Shown here in pieces: positions 12,598-36,088 of a DNA stretch of 64,000 nt (positions within the stretch are counted from its first letter, which is position 1; each line of letters starts with the position of its first letter). This stretch comes from Mycoplasmatota bacterium (GTDB lineage: Bacteria; Bacillota_I; Bacilli_A; Haloplasmatales; Haloplasmataceae). Below the pieces are notes generated by a model, which was given only the letters and a program-made list of their open reading frames with translations, was not told the origin of the DNA and did not search any database. Where the stretch lies: the NCBI GenBank assembly GCA_018394295.1, contig CP074573.1, positions 1,488,001 through 1,552,000 of the forward strand. Reading direction: 5' to 3'. Both the position numbers and the translations under genes were made by a program.

Positions 12598-12915
12598 ATG
12601 AATTATAATAAGTTAAGATCTGAATGGAAAGAAAGAATTGAAGAATATCAAAAAAGTGGATTATCAAAATCAAAATGGTGTAGGGAAAATGGGTATAAAT
12701 TACATCAACTTCTATATTGGATTAAAAAGAATAATCAAAATGAAAAACAAGCACAAGAAATTAATTGGGTACCCATTCCTATTAATCATGAAATGGTTGA
12801 AATGAATGAAGAAAAATGTATTACGATTAAAATAGGAAAATGCAATATAAAGGTTGAACCAGGGTTCAATGGGAATCATTTAAAAGATGTGGTAAAGGTG
12901 TTATCAGAATTATGA
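12598..12915 (+). CDS. tnpA: IS66 accessory protein TnpA
   Basis: A 105-residue protein with the N-terminal helix-turn-helix pattern of IS66 OrfA (KSGLSKSKWCRENGYKLHQL, then LLYWIKK). It is thought to bind DNA during IS66 transposition. ATG follows TTAGGAGGATTTTAAA. It overlaps tnpB by 4 nt (ATGA), indicating translational coupling. The frame appears intact. Confidence 0.92.
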   Translation: MNYNKLRSEWKERIEEYQKSGLSKSKWCRENGYKLHQLLYWIKKNNQNEKQAQEINWVPIPINHEMVEMNEEKCITIKIGKCNIKVEPGFNGNHLKDVVKVLSEL

Positions 12916-13265
12916 TTAAACTCAAGGATGTAAAAACAGTTTATTTCGCGACAGGATATACTGATTTAAGAAAATCAATTGATGGACTATCTCTTATTGT
13001 AAAAAAACAGTTTGATTTAGATCCATTTTCAAATAACTTATTTGTTTTCTGTAATAAAAGTAGACAAATTTTAAAAATTTTACATTGGGATTATAATGGT
13101 TTTTGGATATATAAAAAACGATTAGAAAGTGGTAAATTTAATTGGCCTAAAAGTGAACAGGAGATTACAAGTTCGTCTTTAAAAGAATTTTATTGGTTTT
13201 TAGATGGTTATGAAATACGTAATGGAAAGGCCTTTAAAGAGGTAAAACAAAGGGGGATTGTATAG
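12912..13265 (+). CDS. tnpB: IS66 accessory protein TnpB
   Basis: A 117-residue protein of the IS66 Orf2 family, with the signature TGYTDLRKSIDGL near the N-terminus and LFVFCNKSRQILKILHWD followed by GFWIYKKRLE in the middle. It is needed for IS66 transposition, although its biochemical role is not settled. It overlaps the end of tnpA by 4 nt and lies 77 nt before tnpC. Full length and apparently intact. Confidence 0.95.
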   Translation: MIKLKDVKTVYFATGYTDLRKSIDGLSLIVKKQFDLDPFSNNLFVFCNKSRQILKILHWDYNGFWIYKKRLESGKFNWPKSEQEITSSSLKEFYWFLDGYEIRNGKAFKEVKQRGIV

Positions 13266-13342
13266 TTTCCTTTTCTTTATATAATTAGACTTTTTTCTAA
13301 TTTTATGGTAAAATAAAGTATCAAAAAAAGGTGAGAAAAGCA

Positions 13343-14898
13343 ATGAAAAAAGTAGACTTAAATAAACTAACTAAAGAAGAATTAATTGAATATATCTCAT
13401 CACAAGATTCTAAAATAGTAGAACTTCAAAATAAAGTGAAAAAATATGAAGAGTTCTTTAAATTATATCAACAAAAGCGTTTTGGATCTTCTAGCGAGAA
13501 AATTGATCCTAATCAACAAAGTCTAGAATTATTTAATGAAGCTGAAAAGGAATCAAATTTAAATCGCGAAGAACCTAAACTTGAAAAAATTACCTACACC
13601 AGAAATAAAAAAGGACGAAAAAAAGTACTGATTATTTAAAAACTCTTCCTGTTGAAGAAATACATTATTATCCTGAAGAAAAAGATTGTCCACAATGTGG
13701 TTTTCTACTTCATGAAATGAGTACTGAAGAAAGAACTGAAATTGTAGTTATTCCGCCTAAAGTAAAAATCAAGAAACATATCCGTCATATAGTATCCTGT
13801 CGATTATGTGAGAAAAGTGAAATTAGAACGCCTATAATAAAAGCTAATATGCCTTATCCTGCAATACCAGGAAGCTTAGCTTCATCATCTTTAATTGCGT
13901 ATATAATGGATCAAAAATATACAAATGGGTTACCTCTTTACAGACAAGAGAAACAATTTGAAAGATTGGGAATATTTTTACCGCGACAAAATCTTTCTAA
14001 CTGGGTAATTAAAGGTGCTGCTTGGTTGGAAATCTTATATAATCGTATGCATAAATTATTACTTCAAAAAGATATCCTACATGCAGATGAGACAACTACC
14101 CAAGTATTGAAGGAAAACGGGAGAGAAGCAAAATCAAAGTCCTACATGTGGCTTTATCGAACAGGTTCAGAGGGGAAAGCAATTGTTTTATATAATTATC
14201 AGACGACAAGAGCAGGTAAACATCCCGAAGAGTTTCTTGAAGGATTTAAAGGATATCTTCAGGTGGATGCATATACTGGATATCATAATATTCCTAATGT
14301 AATACTTGTTGGGTGCTGGGCACATGCGAGGAGAGGATTTGCCGAAATAGTAAAAGCTCTATCGAGTGATGATGTGTCCATTGCGAAAGAGGGATTAACT
14401 TTCTGTAATCAGTTATACTCAATTGAGCATAAAATAATGGACTTAACACCTGAAGAAAAGTATGAAATAAGAAATAATGACAGTCGAGAGATTTTGGATG
14501 ATTTTTTAGTATGGCTTAAAAATCAAGCAGAAGAAATTTTACCTAATTGTAAACTTGGTAAAGCTATTAAATATTGTCTCAATCAATGGGATAATCTTGG
14601 AAGATACCTACTTGATGGGAGATTAGAAATTGATAATAATAGAGCTGAAAGATCAATTAAACCTTTCGTGATTGGAAGAAAAAACTGGTTATTCTCTAAT
14701 ACTCCTAAAGGAGCAAAATCAAGTGCCATCATATATAGTGTTATTGAAACCGCGAAGGAGAATAATATAAAACCAATTGAATATCTAACCTATTTATTTG
14801 ATAGATTACCAAATGTAGATTTGAATGATGAACAAATTCTAGACACATTATTACCTTGGTCAGATGAACTCCCTGAAAATTGTAAATTGAACACATAA
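13343..14898 (+). pseudogene. tnpC: IS66 transposase TnpC, frameshifted
   Basis: DDE transposase of about 518 residues if restored. Start ATG 13343 follows AAAGGTGAG. The N-terminal part (coiled region, then QQKRFGSSSEK) runs to 13639. The rest, with zinc cysteines (CPQCG, CRLC), catalytic HADETT, VDAYTGY and DNNRAERSIKPF, continues in the -1 frame from about 13625. The break is at a run of seven A at 13611-13624 (KGRKK|STDYL): one extra A restores a continuous frame. Either a deletion inactivated it, or a slippery A-run allows -1 slippage. IS66 TnpC is normally a single frame, so I favour inactivation. Confidence 0.9.
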
Positions 14899-14940
14899 AA
14901 AAATCCCTCATTTTAGTAAATGAGGATTTTTTATGTGTGT
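14891..14940 (+). terminator. long hairpin after tnpC
   Basis: Arms of about 22 nt (ACACATAAAAAAATCC... pairing with ...GGATTTTTTATGTGT) with a small loop and a T-run in the descending arm. It overlaps the tnpC stop and leads into the right inverted repeat, so it probably ends transcription inside the element. Confidence 0.75.
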
Positions 14941-14942
14941 TA

Positions 14943-14950
14943 TATTTGAC
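14943..14950 (+). repeat. target site duplication of ISL3 element (left)
   Basis: TATTTGAC precedes the element and is repeated exactly at 16842-16849 after it. Eight bp is the usual ISL3-family duplication. Confidence 0.92.
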
Positions 14951-16841
14951 GGTTCTTTCCAAAGTTATTGGATTTATAGTAAAAATTAATAGTAGACTTT
15001 ATTTGCCTACTTTACTTAAATCTATCATTTTAATGATTCCAATAATAATACTTTAGACCTCAGTAGATCAAATTTATTTCTGCCATACATAATCCTTTTT
15101 ATAGATTTTAGTTTATTAACACTTCCTTCTGCTAAACCGTTATTATAACTATACTTTATGGCATTTTCTACGGCATCTTGGTCATTTTGTATACCATTAA
15201 TGAAACTATCAATTTCCTGAATTTCAGATTCTCTTGCCCGTTTAATCCATTTACTTAAACTGTCTTCTGTATCTTCAAGTAACAAAAGTCTGAATTCTTT
15301 TAGTCTTTCAAAGAGTACTTTTATGTCTGGATATTTTTTGAAAAATTCATTCAATTGATTCTCCGTGATCCCTTTTACCTTTTCAAGTGGTTTATATAAT
15401 AATTTATTGATCAAACGTTTGTCTAAAAATTCTGTAGGTTCTTTTGTAGATGAGGTGTCTTTAGCTAAACGCTTTTCTTTTGAGATAAAAAATCTCAATC
15501 CATCTACAGTTCCTGTGTATCCTTTTTCCCTTATATGTTCTGTAATCTTCTTATATGTTATCCCATTAGCACGCATATCAATAACTTCATCTCTAAATGG
15601 CATTAGTTTACCATTTCGGCCTGTTCCATATTGTCCGTGCACAGGATTGAATTCACCTTTGAGATAAGTATCAATGCTTGTAGTGCTATATCCTGTTTTC
15701 TTTGATATGTCTCTTTTTGTATACCCTTTATTCCATAATTCTAGCACCTTATTTCTTTTCTGTTCCACTTTCGAAATGGCGTTGATGTGCTCTTTTCCAC
15801 GTACAGTTATTTTCTCTTTAGGTATATCTTCTTCCCTCATTTTTATATATTTAGCAACTGTTGTTGGTGAAACACCTAACTTATTTCCAATCGTATCATA
15901 GCTATTTCCTTCCTTTGCATATAAACGCCTGGCTTCAATAATTTTTTCTCTACGGCTTAAACCACAAAGATAATCATAACGTTTCTTTCCATCTTGTGAT
16001 ATGAGTGGTATTTCAATGCGACCTGTAATTATTCGTTTCATATACTTTGATATGGATTTCACTAAATTTTTAACTAAATGAAAACGATCACTTACCTGAG
16101 TGGCTTTAGGATGAGCGTCTGCAATAGCCGAGCGATAAGTTGTTGAGCCGTCACGTGAGACGAGTTTAATATTTGGAAACGTAGTAAGCCATTCCGTAAC
16201 TTTCATACTATCTCTTGATTCTAATAAGTCTATAATACATTTAGTTTCAATATCTACCATAATTGTTCCATATGATTTTCTCTTTTTTATCGCAAAGTCA
16301 TCTATACAGACATATTTAACTTCACTCTTGTTTATGACTAGAGTTTTTTTTTAGGTAATTACAAATTGAGCTTTTCTTGATTTCAACGGTCGTATCTGAA
16401 AGGTATTTTGCCGCCGATATAGAACTTTGTGTCAAAGAAACTCGTATAATTTCATCAATTAATCTTTTCGTTTTCTTGCCTTTTTGATCAATAAAACCAA
16501 AGCTTTCTGAGAATGTATACTTCTTACAATTTGGATTTGTACAGAACATATTTTTATTTTTTAGTGCAATAACAACTTTTTTCCCCTGTAATGGCAAGTC
16601 CTGAAAGCTTTTATTGTATCTAGAATGTACTTTTGTACTTTCCTCTCCGCATAGAGGACATGGGAGTGACTCCTTATTTGATTTTACATTAATGTATAAA
16701 GTATCATCAATTAACTCATGTGATATGTAATCAAGACTTTCGTCAAGCATTTTAATTATTTCGTCCATAAGGTACCTCCACTTTTGATACCTTTATTATA
16801 ACATATTTTTACATAAAATTCCAATAACTTTGGAAAGAACC
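14951..16841. mobile_element. ISL3-family insertion sequence inside the IS66 right end
   Basis: A 1891-bp element with perfect 21-bp inverted repeats (14951-14971 and 16821-16841) that begin GGTTCTTTCCAAAG and stay similar further inward, flanked by the 8-bp direct repeat TATTTGAC. It holds one minus-strand ISL3 transposase gene, broken by a frameshift. Its insertion into the IS66 inverted repeat shows it arrived second. Confidence 0.94.
15025..16768 (-). pseudogene. tnp: ISL3-family transposase, frameshifted
   Basis: The ATG at 16768 follows GTGGAGGTACCTT. The first part (148 codons) has the ISL3 zinc-finger opening CPLCGEESTKVHS and DLPLQGK. The second part (from about 16340 down to 15025) has the DDE region CIDDFAIKKRKSYG, a helix-turn-helix repeat region (RDISKKTGYSTTSIDTYL), the motif DRFHLVKNL and the C-terminal NNGLAEGSVNKLKSIKR. 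The parts are joined at a run of nine A near 16343-16353; removing one A gives a continuous frame (YLKKTLVINKSEVKYVCIDD). It is therefore likely inactive unless slippage occurs. Confidence 0.92.
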
Positions 16842-26600: not shown

Positions 26601-27767
26601 CTAGTACTCAACACCAGATGGTGTAGTATAATTATTCTCTGATAGGTAAGTTATTAAATCTTCTTTAGTGTCTGGTACTGTAATCTTACCATCTTTTAAA
26701 TCTTTTGCAGCCTCATCACATTTATCTTGTGTTGCATCAGATAAGTTAGGATTATCGATTGGTAATCCAACAGCATTATCAGTAATATCTAAGTTTAATA
26801 CTTTTCCACCAAAGTCAGACCATTTATCTGTAGCTAATTTGGCAATACTATCATAAGCTGCTACGTCAACGCGTTTTAATGCTGATGTTAATGTAACAGA
26901 TTTACTTAAATCACCGTATTTACCTAAATCATATTGGTCAGAGTCAACACCAACAACCCAAACTTTATCTCCAGAATCTGCACGGTTCTTAGCTTCTGTA
27001 AATACACCTACACCTACACCACCAGCAGCAGTGAAGATGACGTCAATTCCCTTGTCATACATACCAGCTGCTAAAGATTGTCCTGCAGCAGTATCCTTAA
27101 ATGTACCTTGGTATACATAGTCAATAACTTCTGCATTTGTATCAAAGTTTTCATTAGCATACGCTACACCAGCAACAAATCCCCAACCAAATTTTTGTAC
27201 AGCAGGAATTTCCATACCACCAATGAATCCTAATTTGTTAGTCTCAGTTGATAATGCTGCAGCAACACCTGCTAAGAATCCAGCTTGTTGTTCTGCAAAA
27301 TAAATTGATACTGTATTATCAGATACTTTTTCAACTCTTGTTTCATCAAATGCACCATTATTAGGGATTCCATCAATTAATACAAATTTAACATTTTCAT
27401 ATGTATCTTGAGCTTCTAAAATTGCTGTTTCAAATTTATAACCAGGTGTAATGATAATATCATGTCCAGCATCTACTAAGTTCTTGATAGAACTTAAATA
27501 AGTCACTTTTTCTTCACCAGAAGGTTGAACATATTTTTCTTCACCAGGATTTTTTGAAACATAACATTTGATACCATCCCAAGTACCTTGGTTAAATGAT
27601 TTGTCGGTAATAGTTCCTGAGTCAGTTACCATTCCGATTTTAAGACTTTTAGCGTTTTCTACTTTAGCTAACTCATCGCAATAGGTTTTATTTTCTTTTT
27701 CTTTACCACAAGCTGCCATAAGAATCGCTAATGTAAGAACAGAAATTATTGTGAAAAGCTTTTTCAT
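26601..27767 (-). CDS. nupN: BmpA/NupN-type nucleoside-binding lipoprotein
   Basis: A 388-residue substrate-binding lipoprotein. The signal peptide of MKKLFTIISV type ends in the lipobox LMAAC, so the mature Cys (residue 20) is lipidated and anchored outside. The rest is a BMP/PnrA-like fold with KIGMVTDSGTITDKSFNQG, FIGGMEIPAVQKFGWGF and VGVDSDQYD. I start at MKKLF because GGAGGAAAACATTA precedes it; the longer frame has no ribosome binding site. First gene of the importer operon, as nupN is in B. subtilis just downstream of spoIIIE. Confidence 0.95.
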   Translation of the reverse strand: MKKLFTIISVLTLAILMAACGKEKENKTYCDELAKVENAKSLKIGMVTDSGTITDKSFNQGTWDGIKCYVSKNPGEEKYVQPSGEEKVTYLSSIKNLVDAGHDIIITPGYKFETAILEAQDTYENVKFVLIDGIPNNGAFDETRVEKVSDNTVSIYFAEQQAGFLAGVAAALSTETNKLGFIGGMEIPAVQKFGWGFVAGVAYANENFDTNAEVIDYVYQGTFKDTAAGQSLAAGMYDKGIDVIFTAAGGVGVGVFTEAKNRADSGDKVWVVGVDSDQYDLGKYGDLSKSVTLTSALKRVDVAAYDSIAKLATDKWSDFGGKVLNLDITDNAVGLPIDNPNLSDATQDKCDEAAKDLKDGKITVPDTKEDLITYLSENNYTTPSGVEY

Positions 27768-27792
27768 TAATGTTTTCCTCCATCTCATTTTT

Positions 27793-27863: not shown

Positions 27864-29675
27864 TTAATATTCGTCTAAATTCGTCAAGTTTACAACTTGA
27901 ACCCTTGTACTTAAATTATCAGAACGGGAATAGATTATACAATCTCCATTTTTTAATAATTTTGTTGTATCATCTTCTAAGTACTTAAACGATATTTCTT
28001 TATTATTAATCATAAAGGAAATGATTCCATCAAACTGTGCCCTTAAATTATTTGTTAAGATTTTTTCATCCATATTATTAGTTGAGAAAATGGTGTAAAT
28101 AGAAACTTTTCCTCCATAGACTAAAATATAATTTAAATATTTTAAATAATCATTATTATTCATATAAAAGTCAACAAAATCATTTAGTACTAGAAGTATT
28201 GGTTTAAAACTTTTTTTATTTTCGTTTAACTTAGTGAGTCTCTGTTCTACTTCTGTATATATTTTTATAAGCATCGGTTTCATACTTTGGAAATCATGTA
28301 TAAATGGATAAAATAAATGCGGGATGTATTCAAATGAATTTAGTTCAAATTTCGTTGAATCACATAATATTAGTTGAAATTCATCCGGCCTATATTTATA
28401 AACGATTACATTAATAATTGTCTTTAACAAATCTATTTTCGAATTAATGTCATTGCCTATCACTAATATATTTGGCATTTTATTAAAATTTATGCAATGT
28501 AACTTACCACAGTAATTTCTTCCAATTGGTATCATTTGTTTATCTTCATCTTCTTCTAAAATTTCTCTTAAACTAACTAAATAACGGTACTCATTTGGTA
28601 CTTCTATGATTAAACTTTGTTTATTTTCATATTTTTCATACATCCGTATATTATCTGTATCTAATCGAACAAATAAATCATTTTTATAATTTAATATTTT
28701 TTTACTCTTAATACTATTTTCTACTTCAATAATATAGGTTGATATTGTAGGACCGATATATACCTCATCAATTGTAAGGTTTAGATTAAAAGCTTTTAAA
28801 AAATCATTAATTATTTTGGCGTTTTGTAAAGTAATCTCTTTTTGGTTTTCTAATATTTCTTTATTATCATGATACTTCAACATTTTTAAATTGGGTTTGT
28901 TATATTTCTTATGTTTAACCTCTATTTTTTCATTTTTAGTTAATGTAATATTATCAAATTTTTGATTACTCGGACTTTTCAACTGTACTTTATCTATGAC
29001 AACTTCTTTATTTTGAGTTTTATTATATTTGGACACTTCATACATTTTATCAAAAGTATTTTTCACTATTTTTTTACTTTTTTGATACAACTTAATGATT
29101 CCAAAATAAATATCATCAATGAAGTCATAAATTGTTTTCTCAAACAAATAAGCAACTCCTGAGATAAGCAATATAATCGCAATTATTTTGGTCCCAATAG
29201 AACCTAACAAAACATAACTTGTCCAAAACAAAAATGCACCTAACAATCCTCCTCCAAAAGTAGCGTTACTTGATTGCCTATCAATATAACCTAAAAACAA
29301 ATTATAGGATTCAGTTACAATATTAGAATGATTTGATTTGATTTGACTCTCTAAGGCATTGTAAATTGGAAAATGACTATAAATCAATAGTCCAGCACTA
29401 ATAAAAATAAAACCTTTTATTTTTATTGAAGAATAGGTGATAAATTCATGGTAAATAATCATCATCGTTCCATAATAAAACATAAAAATGAGAATGAGCC
29501 AATACCAATCACCAAAAATCATTTTAACTAATGTATTAAGTGTTTTTCCTACAGGACCTAATTCAGAAATTAAGATGAGTGAAAATAAAATGAATAAAAT
29601 CCCCCAAATTTCGAAGTAGACTAAACCTTCTTTATTATTATCATCTACAACTTTTCTCTTTTTATCTTTAGACAA
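27864..29675 (-). CDS. SpoIIIE/FtsK-like protein with degenerate ATPase site
   Basis: Located where B. subtilis has spoIIIE (between RNase J2 and nupN). A basic N-terminus is followed by four or five membrane segments (about residues 22-180), a charged linker, and a domain collinear with the FtsK/SpoIIIE motor: EVPNEYRYLVSLREIL, KMPNILVIG, FELNSFEYIPHLFYPFIHD, TKLLKNGDCIIY. The Walker A site, normally GATGSGKS, reads GNDINSKI (about residue 407), and Walker B, normally IDELAD, reads LNDFVD (about residue 498). The C-terminal DNA-reading gamma domain is absent; 603 residues against about 790. The frame is intact. TTG at 29675 follows GTAGGTGATAAA; a GTG 18 nt upstream is an alternative. It may be membrane-bound and structural, or decaying. 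Confidence 0.85.
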   Translation of the reverse strand: MSKDKKRKVVDDNNKEGLVYFEIWGILFILFSLILISELGPVGKTLNTLVKMIFGDWYWLILIFMFYYGTMMIIYHEFITYSSIKIKGFIFISAGLLIYSHFPIYNALESQIKSNHSNIVTESYNLFLGYIDRQSSNATFGGGLLGAFLFWTSYVLLGSIGTKIIAIILLISGVAYLFEKTIYDFIDDIYFGIIKLYQKSKKIVKNTFDKMYEVSKYNKTQNKEVVIDKVQLKSPSNQKFDNITLTKNEKIEVKHKKYNKPNLKMLKYHDNKEILENQKEITLQNAKIINDFLKAFNLNLTIDEVYIGPTISTYIIEVENSIKSKKILNYKNDLFVRLDTDNIRMYEKYENKQSLIIEVPNEYRYLVSLREILEEDEDKQMIPIGRNYCGKLHCINFNKMPNILVIGNDINSKIDLLKTIINVIVYKYRPDEFQLILCDSTKFELNSFEYIPHLFYPFIHDFQSMKPMLIKIYTEVEQRLTKLNENKKSFKPILLVLNDFVDFYMNNNDYLKYLNYILVYGGKVSIYTIFSTNNMDEKILTNNLRAQFDGIISFMINNKEISFKYLEDDTTKLLKNGDCIIYSRSDNLSTRVQVVNLTNLDEY

Positions 29676-29800
29676 TTTATCACCTACTTTCACACCTTAC
29701 TGTCATTTTATTAAATTTCTTTCTCAAAAAATGACGAATATTATCAGGTGTATCACACAAAGCAAAAAATTACTTCAATGCTAAGTATTAATCAAATAAA

Positions 29801-29833: not shown

Positions 29834-31531
29834 TTATAACTCATTAACTATTAACATAATGATTGGTTTACGTTTTGTTTCTTTATATAAATAGCGTCCA
29901 ATTTTTTCTCTCATCTCATTTTTCATTTTAATCATATCAGTATTTCTAGGATTAGATGAGTGTTCATTAACTAGATTAATTAACGTTTGTTGAACATGAT
30001 TAATTATTTCTTCATTATCTTTCACATAGATAAAACCACGAGAAACAATTTCAGGTCCAGCGATTATTTTTTTCGTCTTTACATCGAGAGTAAGAATGGC
30101 GAGTAATATTCCATCTTGAGATAACATCACACGGTCTTTTAACACCACATTACTAATTTCTCCAACACTTAACCCATCGACCATAATTTGATCAACTTCA
30201 ATGTCATTAGAAATATTGACTAAGTCACCTTGATCAAGTTCAACAACCATCCCATTATCTAATAAGATAATTTTTTCTGAATCATAACCCATTTGTTCGG
30301 CGATTTTAGCTTGTGCATATTGATGACGATATTCCCCTATCACTGGAATAATATATTTAGGTTTTAATAAATTAATCATTAATTTGATATCTTCAGCACT
30401 TGCATGAGAAGATGGTAAATAATTTTTATTGATTGTAATAACACTAGCACCTGTCCGATAAACGATATCAATTGTCCGAGCAGCCTTAATTTCAGTTCCT
30501 GGGATTGGTGGTGAAGCAATTAAGATGGTATCTGTTGCTTCTATATGAATAAGACGGTCTAATTTTCTTGACATTCTAATCATAGCGTCAAAAGGTTCTT
30601 GGCGTTCACCAGTTGCTAATACAACTAAATTAGGTAAATTATTATCATTTGCCTCATCAATAAATTTTAAATTCACTAGCATTCCTGGGGTAGGAAACTT
30701 TAAATAGCCCATTTTAACCGCGATATCTACAATTCGTTGCATCTTGCGACCAATAATCGCAATTTTACGTTGATGTTCATTCGCAACATTTATAATCTTT
30801 TGTATTCTTTGTAAGTCCGAAGAAAAAACAGAAACAATAACTCTTCCAGGAGCTTGTGAAATTGCTTCACTTAATTCATAGACAAATCGAGCTTCTCCAG
30901 TCGTATGTCCAACCTTATCAGCTGATAAACTCTCAGATAATAACGCTAAAACACCTTTGCGAGAGATATCAGAAATTTGATCATAGCTTGTCTGATATCT
31001 GTTTTCAACATTTTGTTCAAATGTATAATCGGATGTATAAACAATAGCTCCATCAGTTGTATTTAAACAAATTCCTACTGAATCAGGAATACTATGGGTC
31101 GTACTAAAAAAAGAAATTTGTACATCATTGAATGTTAAAACATTTGTACTCTTTATTTTCTTTAATTGATAATCATCGATATTTTCCCCATCATCACGCA
31201 TCGCATCTTCAACTAGAGCCATGGTAAGACGTGTACCATAAACAGGAATATTAATATTTTTTAAAAGATTTGGAACTGCTCCCATATGATCATCATGAGC
31301 ATGTGTTAAAAATAGACCTACGATTCGATTTTTATTTTCTACCAAATATTTAAAATCAGGGATAACTGCATCAACCCCCAATAAATCTTCACCAGGATAC
31401 TTTAAACCAGCGTCTAATATGAAAATTTTCGAATTGACTTCAATGACATACATATTTTTTCCATTTTCACCTAGTCCACCTAAGGCAAAAATCTTAATTC
31501 TTGAATGTTTTATATTGTTCACAAATTTCAT
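29834..31531 (-). CDS. rnj: ribonuclease J
   Basis: Metallo-beta-lactamase/beta-CASP RNase acting as 5' exonuclease and endonuclease in mRNA turnover. About 565 residues: LGGLGENGKNMYVIE, the metal motif HAHDDH (complete HxHxDH), TTHSIPDS and YTSDYTFE, then the beta-CASP region (SVFSSDLQRIQK, SSHASAEDI) and the C-terminal domain. By position next to dapA and the spoIIIE locus it corresponds to rnjB (ymfA). I start at the ATG at 31531 (MKFVNN). The nearest good Shine-Dalgarno (GGAAGGTG) is about 20 nt upstream, separated by an 8-bp hairpin; the longer frame from TTG 31582 has no good site. Confidence 0.93.
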   Translation of the reverse strand: MKFVNNIKHSRIKIFALGGLGENGKNMYVIEVNSKIFILDAGLKYPGEDLLGVDAVIPDFKYLVENKNRIVGLFLTHAHDDHMGAVPNLLKNINIPVYGTRLTMALVEDAMRDDGENIDDYQLKKIKSTNVLTFNDVQISFFSTTHSIPDSVGICLNTTDGAIVYTSDYTFEQNVENRYQTSYDQISDISRKGVLALLSESLSADKVGHTTGEARFVYELSEAISQAPGRVIVSVFSSDLQRIQKIINVANEHQRKIAIIGRKMQRIVDIAVKMGYLKFPTPGMLVNLKFIDEANDNNLPNLVVLATGERQEPFDAMIRMSRKLDRLIHIEATDTILIASPPIPGTEIKAARTIDIVYRTGASVITINKNYLPSSHASAEDIKLMINLLKPKYIIPVIGEYRHQYAQAKIAEQMGYDSEKIILLDNGMVVELDQGDLVNISNDIEVDQIMVDGLSVGEISNVVLKDRVMLSQDGILLAILTLDVKTKKIIAGPEIVSRGFIYVKDNEEIINHVQQTLINLVNEHSSNPRNTDMIKMKNEMREKIGRYLYKETKRKPIIMLIVNEL

Positions 31532-31549
31532 CCGTACTAACGTACGGAT
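31530..31549 (-). promoter_or_regulatory. hairpin between Shine-Dalgarno and start of RNase J
   Basis: On the minus strand ATCCGTAC-GTTA-GTACGGAT forms an 8-bp stem with a tetraloop. It sits directly after AAGGAAGGTGAA and its last two bases are the AT of the start codon. With the stem folded the ribosome binding site would be about as close to the start as in neighbouring genes. Confidence 0.6.
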
Positions 31550-31704
31550 TTCACCTTCCTTTCTATATCTATTTATAATCAATTTTTCTTTAAAACTAAT
31601 TTTTAGTTCCAGTAAAAAAAAAGAACGATATGTCTGTATATAGTATGATTCACCTTTCCGTTACTTATCTTATTATATATCAATTTTTTAAAAAAATAAA
31701 CAAA

Positions 31705-33651: not shown

Positions 33652-34677
33652 TCACCAACCGTATATCTTTTCTTCAAAACATTTTTCTGCAATTTGTAAA
33701 GCATTAGCTGCAGCACCTTTTAATAAATTATCAGCGACATTCCAAAAATGTAATATATGATCATCATAATAATCTTTTCTGATTCTTCCTACAAATACCT
33801 CACTTTTATCACGACAATGTTGAGCAAGTGGGTAAACTTGATTTTCGATATCATCCATCACAATTATATTTTCTGATTCCCATAAATTATGAAATACTTG
33901 TGTTAAATTAACTTTATTTATAAAAGCCACCGTCACACTCTCAGAATGTCCATTAATAATCGGTACACGGACTGCTGTACAACTTATAGAAAAGTTTTTC
34001 TTAAGTATTTTTTGAGATTCCTTAATAACCTTTAATTCCTCTTTTGAATATCCACTATCATCAAATAAATCAATTTGTGGGATTACATTATTTAAAATTG
34101 AATAGTGTTTTTCTAACCCTTTGACAGGAAGAATTCTTGCTTCTTTCACACCTCTTCTATAATGAATGATTTGGTCTTCTAATTCATTAATAGCCCCTTT
34201 ACCAGCACCTGATACTGCTTGATAAGTTGAAACATCAACTCTTTTTATCTCATTATCTTTAGATAAAGCATTCAAGATGACAACTAATTGAATGGTTGAA
34301 CAATTTGGATTGGCAATAATTCGGTCTGTTTTTTTAATCTCATTAAAGTTAACTTCTGGTACAACTAAGGGAATTTCATCAATCATCCTATATACACTTG
34401 AATTATCTATGACAACACAGCCTTTATTGACAGCGACTTTAACATATTTTTTCGCAATATCATTTGTTGCCATAAAAAATACCAGATCAAGATTTTCAAA
34501 TACTTTATCTGATATCGGTCTTACTTTAATTGTTTCTTTACTAAATACAACCTTCTTACCGGTTGATCTTTCTGATGCGATAAGTCTTAATTCATCTATA
34601 GGTAAAATTGTTTTATTTAACAACTGTATCAGTTTATCACCAACTACACCAGTTGCACCAACGACTCCGATTTTCAT
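33652..34677 (-). CDS. asd: aspartate-semialdehyde dehydrogenase
   Basis: Reduces aspartyl phosphate to aspartate semialdehyde with NADPH. The 341 residues show the Rossmann motif GVVGATGVVGDKLI, the catalytic cysteine in NPNCSTIQL, SGAGKGAINEL, and the histidine in INGHSESV. ATG overlaps the dpaB stop (ATGA). It lies between dpaB and dapG, the same order as in B. subtilis. Confidence 0.97.
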   Translation of the reverse strand: MKIGVVGATGVVGDKLIQLLNKTILPIDELRLIASERSTGKKVVFSKETIKVRPISDKVFENLDLVFFMATNDIAKKYVKVAVNKGCVVIDNSSVYRMIDEIPLVVPEVNFNEIKKTDRIIANPNCSTIQLVVILNALSKDNEIKRVDVSTYQAVSGAGKGAINELEDQIIHYRRGVKEARILPVKGLEKHYSILNNVIPQIDLFDDSGYSKEELKVIKESQKILKKNFSISCTAVRVPIINGHSESVTVAFINKVNLTQVFHNLWESENIIVMDDIENQVYPLAQHCRDKSEVFVGRIRKDYYDDHILHFWNVADNLLKGAAANALQIAEKCFEEKIYGW

Positions 34678-35261
34678 CTTGTATCAACTCGCTTATTTTT
34701 AACAATAATAATCGGTTGAATTTGTTTATCCATTAAAGCATAGCGAATTGTATCTTCAGTTTTATTAAAATCAGACACCAAACTATTTGGTTTCTCTTCA
34801 GGATTATCTTGACCAAATGGGATAAAATATATATTTTTCATGACTAATAATTTCATTAAATTAGACCCATTCATTCCTAATGCATCATTACTTGATACGC
34901 CTATTATTACAGGACGACAGTTTCTTAATGTTGATTTAGCAGCCATGATTACCGCATTATCAGTTAAAGCATTCGCTAATTTACTTAATGAATTGCCTGA
35001 ACAAGGAGCAATCAACATACAATCAAAGAATTTACTTGGTCCGAATGGTTCTGCATCTTCAATCGTATAGATGACTTTATCATTGACTAATTCCTCTATT
35101 TCTTTCACATATTCAGGATGTTGTTTAATCGATGTAGTCCCAAACAATTTAATTGTATATTTTTTTAGTAACATATTTTTTATAATAGGTACTAAATCAT
35201 TTATTTTACCATATGATCCTGTTATACCTATCGCAATTTTAAGTGCTTTATTACCTTCCAT
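34674..35261 (-). CDS. dpaB: dipicolinate synthase subunit B (SpoVFB)
   Basis: Flavoprotein subunit of the enzyme that oxidises the DapA product to dipicolinic acid in the mother cell during sporulation. 195 residues with IAIGITGSYGKIND, an FMN-type LIAPCSGNSLSKLANALTD and NGSNLMKLL. ATG 35261 overlaps the dpaA stop (TGATG) after GGGGTGAATCG. Its presence is the strongest sign in this window that the lineage makes, or made, endospores. Confidence 0.94.
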   Translation of the reverse strand: MEGNKALKIAIGITGSYGKINDLVPIIKNMLLKKYTIKLFGTTSIKQHPEYVKEIEELVNDKVIYTIEDAEPFGPSKFFDCMLIAPCSGNSLSKLANALTDNAVIMAAKSTLRNCRPVIIGVSSNDALGMNGSNLMKLLVMKNIYFIPFGQDNPEEKPNSLVSDFNKTEDTIRYALMDKQIQPIIIVKNKRVDTR

Positions 35262-36088
35262 CACGATTCACCCCTAACAATATCATGATAGATGAATTGT
35301 CCAATAAGTTCGCCAGTTGTTTTAGGTGCAATTTTACCAGGAATTCCTGGTAATAATAAAGTACTAATTCCTTGATTTTTTGCATATTCATGATCAAGTC
35401 CATAAGGTTTACTGGCTACATCAATTATTAAGACATCTTTATTTTGTAATTTTTTAATCATTGTAAAGTCTATTATTTTAAATGGAATCGTATTTATAAT
35501 AAAATCAAATTGGTCTATCTGCTTGATTATTTCTGAGTGAACAATTACATTAAAATCATTTATTTTGGCATGGATTATATCTTTTTTATGACGACAAGAT
35601 ATTGTGATATCAGCTTTTAATGTTTTCAATACCTTAGCACAAATTTGTCCTAATCTTCCATATCCTATCACTAATACACGACTATTAAAAATCGCTTTTT
35701 CATCATTATTTACGATTGAAGAAATAATTCCTTCTGTTGTAATATAATTATTTTTAATTGCTAGATCATCTGTTAAATAAGTTTTTAGTTGTATCTTATT
35801 TTCTTCACATTTATTTTTTAACTCATCTGAAATTAATCCAATATAAATTGTTTTATCTCTTAACATTTTAATATAATTATCAGTTAGATGAATATCTGTA
35901 CCATCAATTAAAAAATCTTTATCAACACCTCTAACTGGTAATATTACATAATCACAATTCTTTTTCTCTATACCATAAAATAAATGAAGTTCATCTGAAA
36001 TTTCTGAAATATCAATGCGACTTTTCAAGTAATTCTGTATGTACTTCATTCTTTCATCTTTATTTTTCACTATAAGAACTCTAGACAT
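35261..36088 (-). CDS. dpaA: dipicolinate synthase subunit A (SpoVFA)
   Basis: NAD(P)-dependent subunit of dipicolinate synthase. The 275 residues have an N-terminal DpaA domain and a dehydrogenase domain with VLVIGYGRLGQICAKVL and the closing motif LLLPGIPGKIAPKTTG. ATG follows AGAAGGTGATTTATA. First gene of dpaA-dpaB-asd-dapG-dapA, which encodes the whole route from aspartate to dipicolinate. A sigma-K-like promoter lies just upstream. Somewhat shorter than B. subtilis SpoVFA (about 297 residues). Confidence 0.93.
   Translation of the reverse strand: MSRVLIVKNKDERMKYIQNYLKSRIDISEISDELHLFYGIEKKNCDYVILPVRGVDKDFLIDGTDIHLTDNYIKMLRDKTIYIGLISDELKNKCEENKIQLKTYLTDDLAIKNNYITTEGIISSIVNNDEKAIFNSRVLVIGYGRLGQICAKVLKTLKADITISCRHKKDIIHAKINDFNVIVHSEIIKQIDQFDFIINTIPFKIIDFTMIKKLQNKDVLIIDVASKPYGLDHEYAKNQGISTLLLPGIPGKIAPKTTGELIGQFIYHDIVRGES

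Follow-up and report, generated by a model that had tools for sequence, protein, structure and literature searches.

The window, a stretch of 64,000 nucleotides from a Mycoplasmatota genome (G000; family Haloplasmataceae, f1), carries on its minus strand an open reading frame of 603 codons (27864..29675). The TTG at 29675 is an in-frame start and agrees with the ATG, GTG or TTG starts of the relatives, which lie at the same or an adjacent place. A ribosome binding site, AGGTGAT (29679..29685), stands 3 nt 5' of the start, and the same block is found 5' of the f1 orthologues. The neighbouring genes discussed here are also on the minus strand. Upstream lies rnjB (RNase J, 29834..31582), which marks the spoIIIE locus, and downstream a gene for a BMP-type lipoprotein (26601..27788), followed by an ABC importer. 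Farther upstream are dpaA (dipicolinate synthase A, 35261..36088; TIGR02853, E 1.8e-50) and, directly after it, a dpaB-like gene (34674..35264), whose pairing with dpaA is kept in relatives. A promoter-like block, ATTCGyCAT followed after about 20 nt by TAAAAT, is present at window positions 29690-29760 and is kept 5' of the f1 orthologues; a recognisable sporulation-sigma promoter was sought there, but the block could be assigned to no sigma factor.

The surroundings of the gene were compared with those in further families (f3, f5, f11 and f16). The f1 relatives share with f11 genomes carrying an intact spoIIIE (f11 being, by inference, Turicibacter-like) the order dpaA ... dapA, rnjB, spoIIIE, BMP lipoprotein, ABC importer. 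The motorless gene occupies the position of the intact spoIIIE, between rnjB and the bmp/nup-type genes for the lipoprotein and the nucleoside-type ABC importer. The link to rnjB was kept in f3 genomes and in some f5 genomes, and was seen in no f16 stretch. In B. subtilis, too, rnjB lies upstream of spoIIIE. Judged by gene order, the window gene is the positional orthologue of spoIIIE.

The initial annotation had placed the gene exactly at the spoIIIE position of B. subtilis, and had described a frame of about 600 codons and a ribosome binding site that were kept, together with a Walker A motif, a Walker B motif and a gamma domain that were lost. All of this agreed with what was found, and the proposed homology to FtsK was confirmed by profile searches. 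The alpha domain (residues ~261-361; 28593..28895) matched PF17854 (FtsK_alpha) with E 3.4e-16. The recognisable part of a degenerate RecA-like beta domain (residues ~374-486; 28218..28556) matched PF01580 (FtsK_SpoIIIE) with E 7e-13, the match covering only positions 12-126 of the 221 in the model, i.e. the first half of the beta domain. A phmmer comparison with FtsK motor structures gave E 1.8e-23. An N-terminal domain of the SpoIIIE type with several transmembrane segments (residues 1-195; 29091..29675) was recognised from orthologue hydropathy, the helices of the structure model, conserved membrane-domain columns and the motifs FGDWYW and GGGxxG. Its match to FtsK_4TM was under the cut-off (E 0.077), as was the case for several intact relatives.

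The beta domain has lost both Walker A and Walker B. In the alignment the Walker A position reads GNDINSKI (residues 407-414; 28434..28457) and the Walker B position LNDFVD (residues 497-502; 28170..28187), in which D is replaced by N and E by D. The pore-loop consensus ATQRPS...GxIKAN is also lost. The chain runs on for only about 100 residues past the Walker B region, where intact SpoIIIE has about 205, and thus lacks the gamma domain. An AlphaFold model of the protein had a mean pLDDT of 69.6, with values of 80-90 across much of the alpha and RecA-like part. When this model was used in Foldseek, the top matches were FtsK motor structures (6t8b, E 1.3e-22, TM 0.77 on the target), and the prediction thus bore out the relation to the SpoIIIE motor. 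According to the model, the protein is a SpoIIIE retaining the motor fold without the motor residues. It resembles B. subtilis SpoIIIE in its locus beside rnjB, its N-terminal membrane domain, its alpha domain and its RecA-like cytoplasmic fold, and differs from it in lacking Walker A and B, the pore-loop motif and the gamma domain. Judged from these residues, neither ATP hydrolysis nor DNA pumping is to be expected of the motorless SpoIIIE.

An alignment-based search of 395 genomes was carried out across the class, and the loci were then read individually. Four families, f1, f3, f5 and f16, yielded motorless proteins with a membrane anchor, their open frames being 545-640 residues long. This spread over at least four families goes beyond what the initial annotation had described. 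The gamma (sequence-reading) domain was missing in 29/29 motorless proteins, all chains ending before it. An unrooted tree was built from these 29 and from 18 intact anchored proteins, some of the latter forming long branches. All 29 motorless proteins fell on the same side of a single branch, and the same split was obtained from the membrane-domain columns alone (bootstrap 98, SH-aLRT 95). Such a one-sided placement fits one old loss, read from an unrooted tree with some long intact branches. Of the columns conserved to at least 90% in intact SpoIIIE, the motorless proteins kept 90-100% in the membrane domain (9 columns only), 13-44% in the alpha domain, 15-30% in the beta domain and almost none in the gamma domain. 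No other part of the motorless proteins is as well kept as the membrane domain; FGDWY, which opens the second membrane helix, and GGG, which precedes a later one, are nearly invariant among those aligned. The cytoplasmic domain is strongly divergent from family to family.

All f1 genomes searched (8/8) carry an orthologue with the same dead site, seven complete and one cut by a contig end, at 49-77% identity. Between f1 pairs, overall dN/dS (NG86) was about 0.1 (0.08-0.18), with values of 0.06-0.19 for the dead beta domain and 0.04-0.13 for the membrane domain. Because synonymous sites are near saturation, pN/pS, which was 0.15-0.34 for the overall, beta and membrane-domain comparisons of the same pairs, is the safer upper figure. 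The linker was under looser constraint. Relatives with identities as low as about 25% still have frames of 545-640 codons, and the open frame is therefore far beyond chance. These results uphold the proposal that the gene is under selection rather than in recent decay. A decaying pseudogene, to which the loss of the motor and the gamma domain might point, was rejected as extremely improbable, given a frame kept in four families, dN/dS far below 1, a retained start and ribosome binding site, and a dead site that recurs in the orthologues.

A second FtsK/SpoIIIE protein with an intact P-loop, an active paralogue of the kind the initial annotation had considered as a partner, was sought genome-wide and proved to be SftA. 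The sole intact chromosomal FtsK-type motor of G000 is this soluble protein of 815 residues (C1:1582147-1584594, 66 kb from the motorless gene), with intact Walker A and B and no membrane domain. Its gene is flanked by a thioredoxin-like gene and by murC, and farther out lie ytxG-like, aroA and ccpA-like genes; this is the neighbourhood of sftA in B. subtilis. In those genomes with the motorless gene in which a complete motor was read, the motor was always of the SftA type, without a membrane domain (PF01580 searches). Exceptions to SftA as the only complete chromosomal FtsK-type motor were EssC-like proteins in G196 and G292. No motor above the threshold was obtained from G007 and G217, which was ascribed to missing data, and the SftA genes of G182, G203, G231, G237 and G258 were partial or split over contigs. 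In G086, G128 and G292 the soluble motor was present and the motorless gene itself lay outside the loci read. Searches with PF01580 and the 4TM model found no second anchored SpoIIIE in G000 or in the other motorless-bearing genomes searched. SftA belongs to the same superfamily as the motorless protein and occurs in the same genomes; as a soluble intact motor without a membrane domain it is the architectural complement of that protein. Since the only intact chromosomal DNA pump is an unanchored relative, spore loading in these organisms would have to differ from that in Bacillus.

A further soluble FtsK-like ATPase with an intact P-loop, GETGGGKS, is encoded on a 98-kb contig of G000 (G000:C2:1-989), the gene being cut at the contig end; soluble FtsK-like genes resembling it, of 430-440 aa, are present in G001 and G003.

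The association of the motorless gene with sporulation genes was also followed. SpoIVA and SpoIIE were found in 8/8 f1 genomes. G000 also has spoIIGA-sigE-sigG, spoIIAA-spoIIAB-sigF (with a diverged sigF) followed by spoVAC-spoVAD, and dpaA. Within f16, SpoIVA was present in 8/10 genomes with the motorless gene as against 1/15 without it (Fisher p 0.0003); read the other way, the motorless gene occurred in 8/9 genomes with SpoIVA and in 2/16 without. The exceptions were G100, in which SpoIVA is present but no motorless gene was detected, and the incomplete genomes G203 and G258, which have the motorless gene without SpoIVA. Phylogeny-aware pairing on the SftA tree gave 7 independent pairs, of which about 5 agreed and none disagreed, and with so few pairs and a median p of 0.06 this support is only suggestive. 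Since its distribution follows that of SpoIVA in one family, the motorless spoIIIE has the appearance of a sporulation gene. Cell-wall loss could co-vary with sporulation loss, which would be a point against the sporulation link.

SpoIIIAE (PF09546), part of the mother cell-forespore channel, was not found in the f1, f3 and f5 genomes searched despite the presence of SpoIIE and SpoIVA, which suggests that these families may sporulate without the SpoIIIA-SpoIIQ channel. Three f11 genomes in which SpoIIIE is intact do have it. Loss of SpoIIIAE is not tied to loss of the motor, because f10 and f13 lineages with an intact SpoIIIE lack it too. Four f3 and f5 genomes (G009, G011, G021 and G042) had one SigF/SigG-type factor at E <= 1e-20 and no recognisable SigF; it stood in the sigE-sigG position in the loci L151 and L158. 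The SigF encoded in the spoIIA operon of f1 is strongly diverged.

The initial annotation had offered scaffold, regulator and partner roles; the association with sporulation genes speaks for a role at the septum during sporulation. The reading we prefer, and consider on balance probable, is that the motorless SpoIIIE is a septal membrane scaffold or seal for sporulation and that DNA movement is left to SftA. The membrane-anchored protein, no longer a motor, would use its membrane domain and its dead FtsK-like cytoplasmic domain to assemble at the sporulation septum. The resulting structural ring would organise or seal the septal membranes around the chromosome, and DNA would be moved by the soluble SftA. 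A precedent for assembly without translocation, and for a motor-independent role in septal fission, is provided by ATPase-dead SpoIIIE of B. subtilis, which supports septal membrane fission and no translocation; fission there relies on the transmembrane domain and the large extracellular loop (PMC4423119). That protein is a laboratory mutant, whereas the present case is an old natural loss that removed the gamma domain too. The sealing role of SpoIIIE is debated, an aqueous open pore with SpoIIIE as a checkpoint having been argued (PMC3646729). SpoIIIE is regarded as the motor by which the forespore is filled. A clade that keeps sporulation genes while a motorless SpoIIIE stays under strong selection amounts to a natural separation-of-function experiment. 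It bears on the debated role of the membrane domain, paired sealed channel versus open pore, and raises the question whether the work of an anchored FtsK-type motor can be taken over by a soluble one.

It is possible, though we think it unlikely, that no pumping follows septation at all. SftA and other segregation factors would then bring the whole chromosome into the forespore ahead of closure, leaving the motorless SpoIIIE only to seal or monitor the septum. B. subtilis SftA, which appears to have no membrane domain, works where division sites are just forming and is unable to rescue septum-trapped DNA (PMC4744071), and this, the fission supported by ATPase-dead SpoIIIE (PMC4423119) and a sporulation set reduced in other ways, with no SpoIIIAE in f1, f3 and f5, are all consistent with loading before closure. 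However, about two thirds of the B. subtilis chromosome is translocated after septation (PMC4423119), and the order of events would have to change completely. Sealing alone, moreover, leaves a large cytoplasmic domain under strong selection unexplained.

In another reading, SftA would dock in trans on a ring of motorless SpoIIIE at the closed septum, anchor and motor being two proteins of one pump. The losses are complementary, an anchor without a motor and a motor without an anchor co-occurring in the genomes checked; the dead domain retains the FtsK-motor fold under strong selection, and some B. subtilis SpoIIIE variants may mix with each other in oligomers (PMC4744071). Against this, SftA is retained in f16 genomes without the motorless gene, which indicates that it has an independent role and that its retention does not depend on the motorless SpoIIIE. 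No trait was found that sets the SftA of motorless-bearing genomes apart, and the dead domain has lost its pore-loop residues. The cytoplasmic domain of the motorless proteins shows strong divergence between families. In addition, SftA was not required for the rescue of a gamma-less SpoIIIE in B. subtilis (PMC4744071). Taken together, these points make such a pump rather doubtful, somewhat more so than loading before closure. The broader proposal, that a whole branch of spore-gene-bearing Bacilli may have split SpoIIIE into a septal anchor and SftA, which would jointly load the forespore chromosome, is held in equal doubt.

A general division scaffold with no link to sporulation is improbable. 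The membrane domain of E. coli FtsK is essential and separable from the motor, and in this respect the N-terminal domain of that protein is similar to the motorless SpoIIIE; unlike the latter, it is part of an intact protein, is essential in vegetative division and has no tie to sporulation. The presence of the motorless gene in all f1 genomes would suit such a role, but the gene was not found in f16 genomes without SpoIVA, even though these keep SftA. A negative regulator or decoy of SftA, acting as a dominant-negative subunit, would account for a dead subunit with preserved fold alongside an active paralogue, but it is the membrane domain that is kept best, and nothing indicates inhibition, and we regard this as very improbable.

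No earlier description of a degenerate or motorless SpoIIIE was found in the literature searched, supplements and most subscription journals being outside its scope, and SpoIIIE is absent from the main text of the survey of sporulation loss in these orders by Field et al. (2024).

An F[VI]S[PS]xxG-type peptide was seen at the N-terminus of many SftA proteins of f1, f3, f5, f16 and f11 (L009, L047-L050, L161-L181 and others). An F[VI]SPxxG-type peptide as a docking motif specific to motorless-bearing genomes was rejected, as it occurs with and without the motorless gene; the F[VI]S[PS]xxG-type peptide is perhaps a septum-targeting motif. One sftA (L187, G203:C121, from an incomplete genome) contains an in-frame TAA, possibly a frameshift or an assembly error. 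Elsewhere in the window, positions 12598-16768 carry insertion-sequence genes, which were judged by their ORFs to encode IS66-like and ISL3-like transposases.
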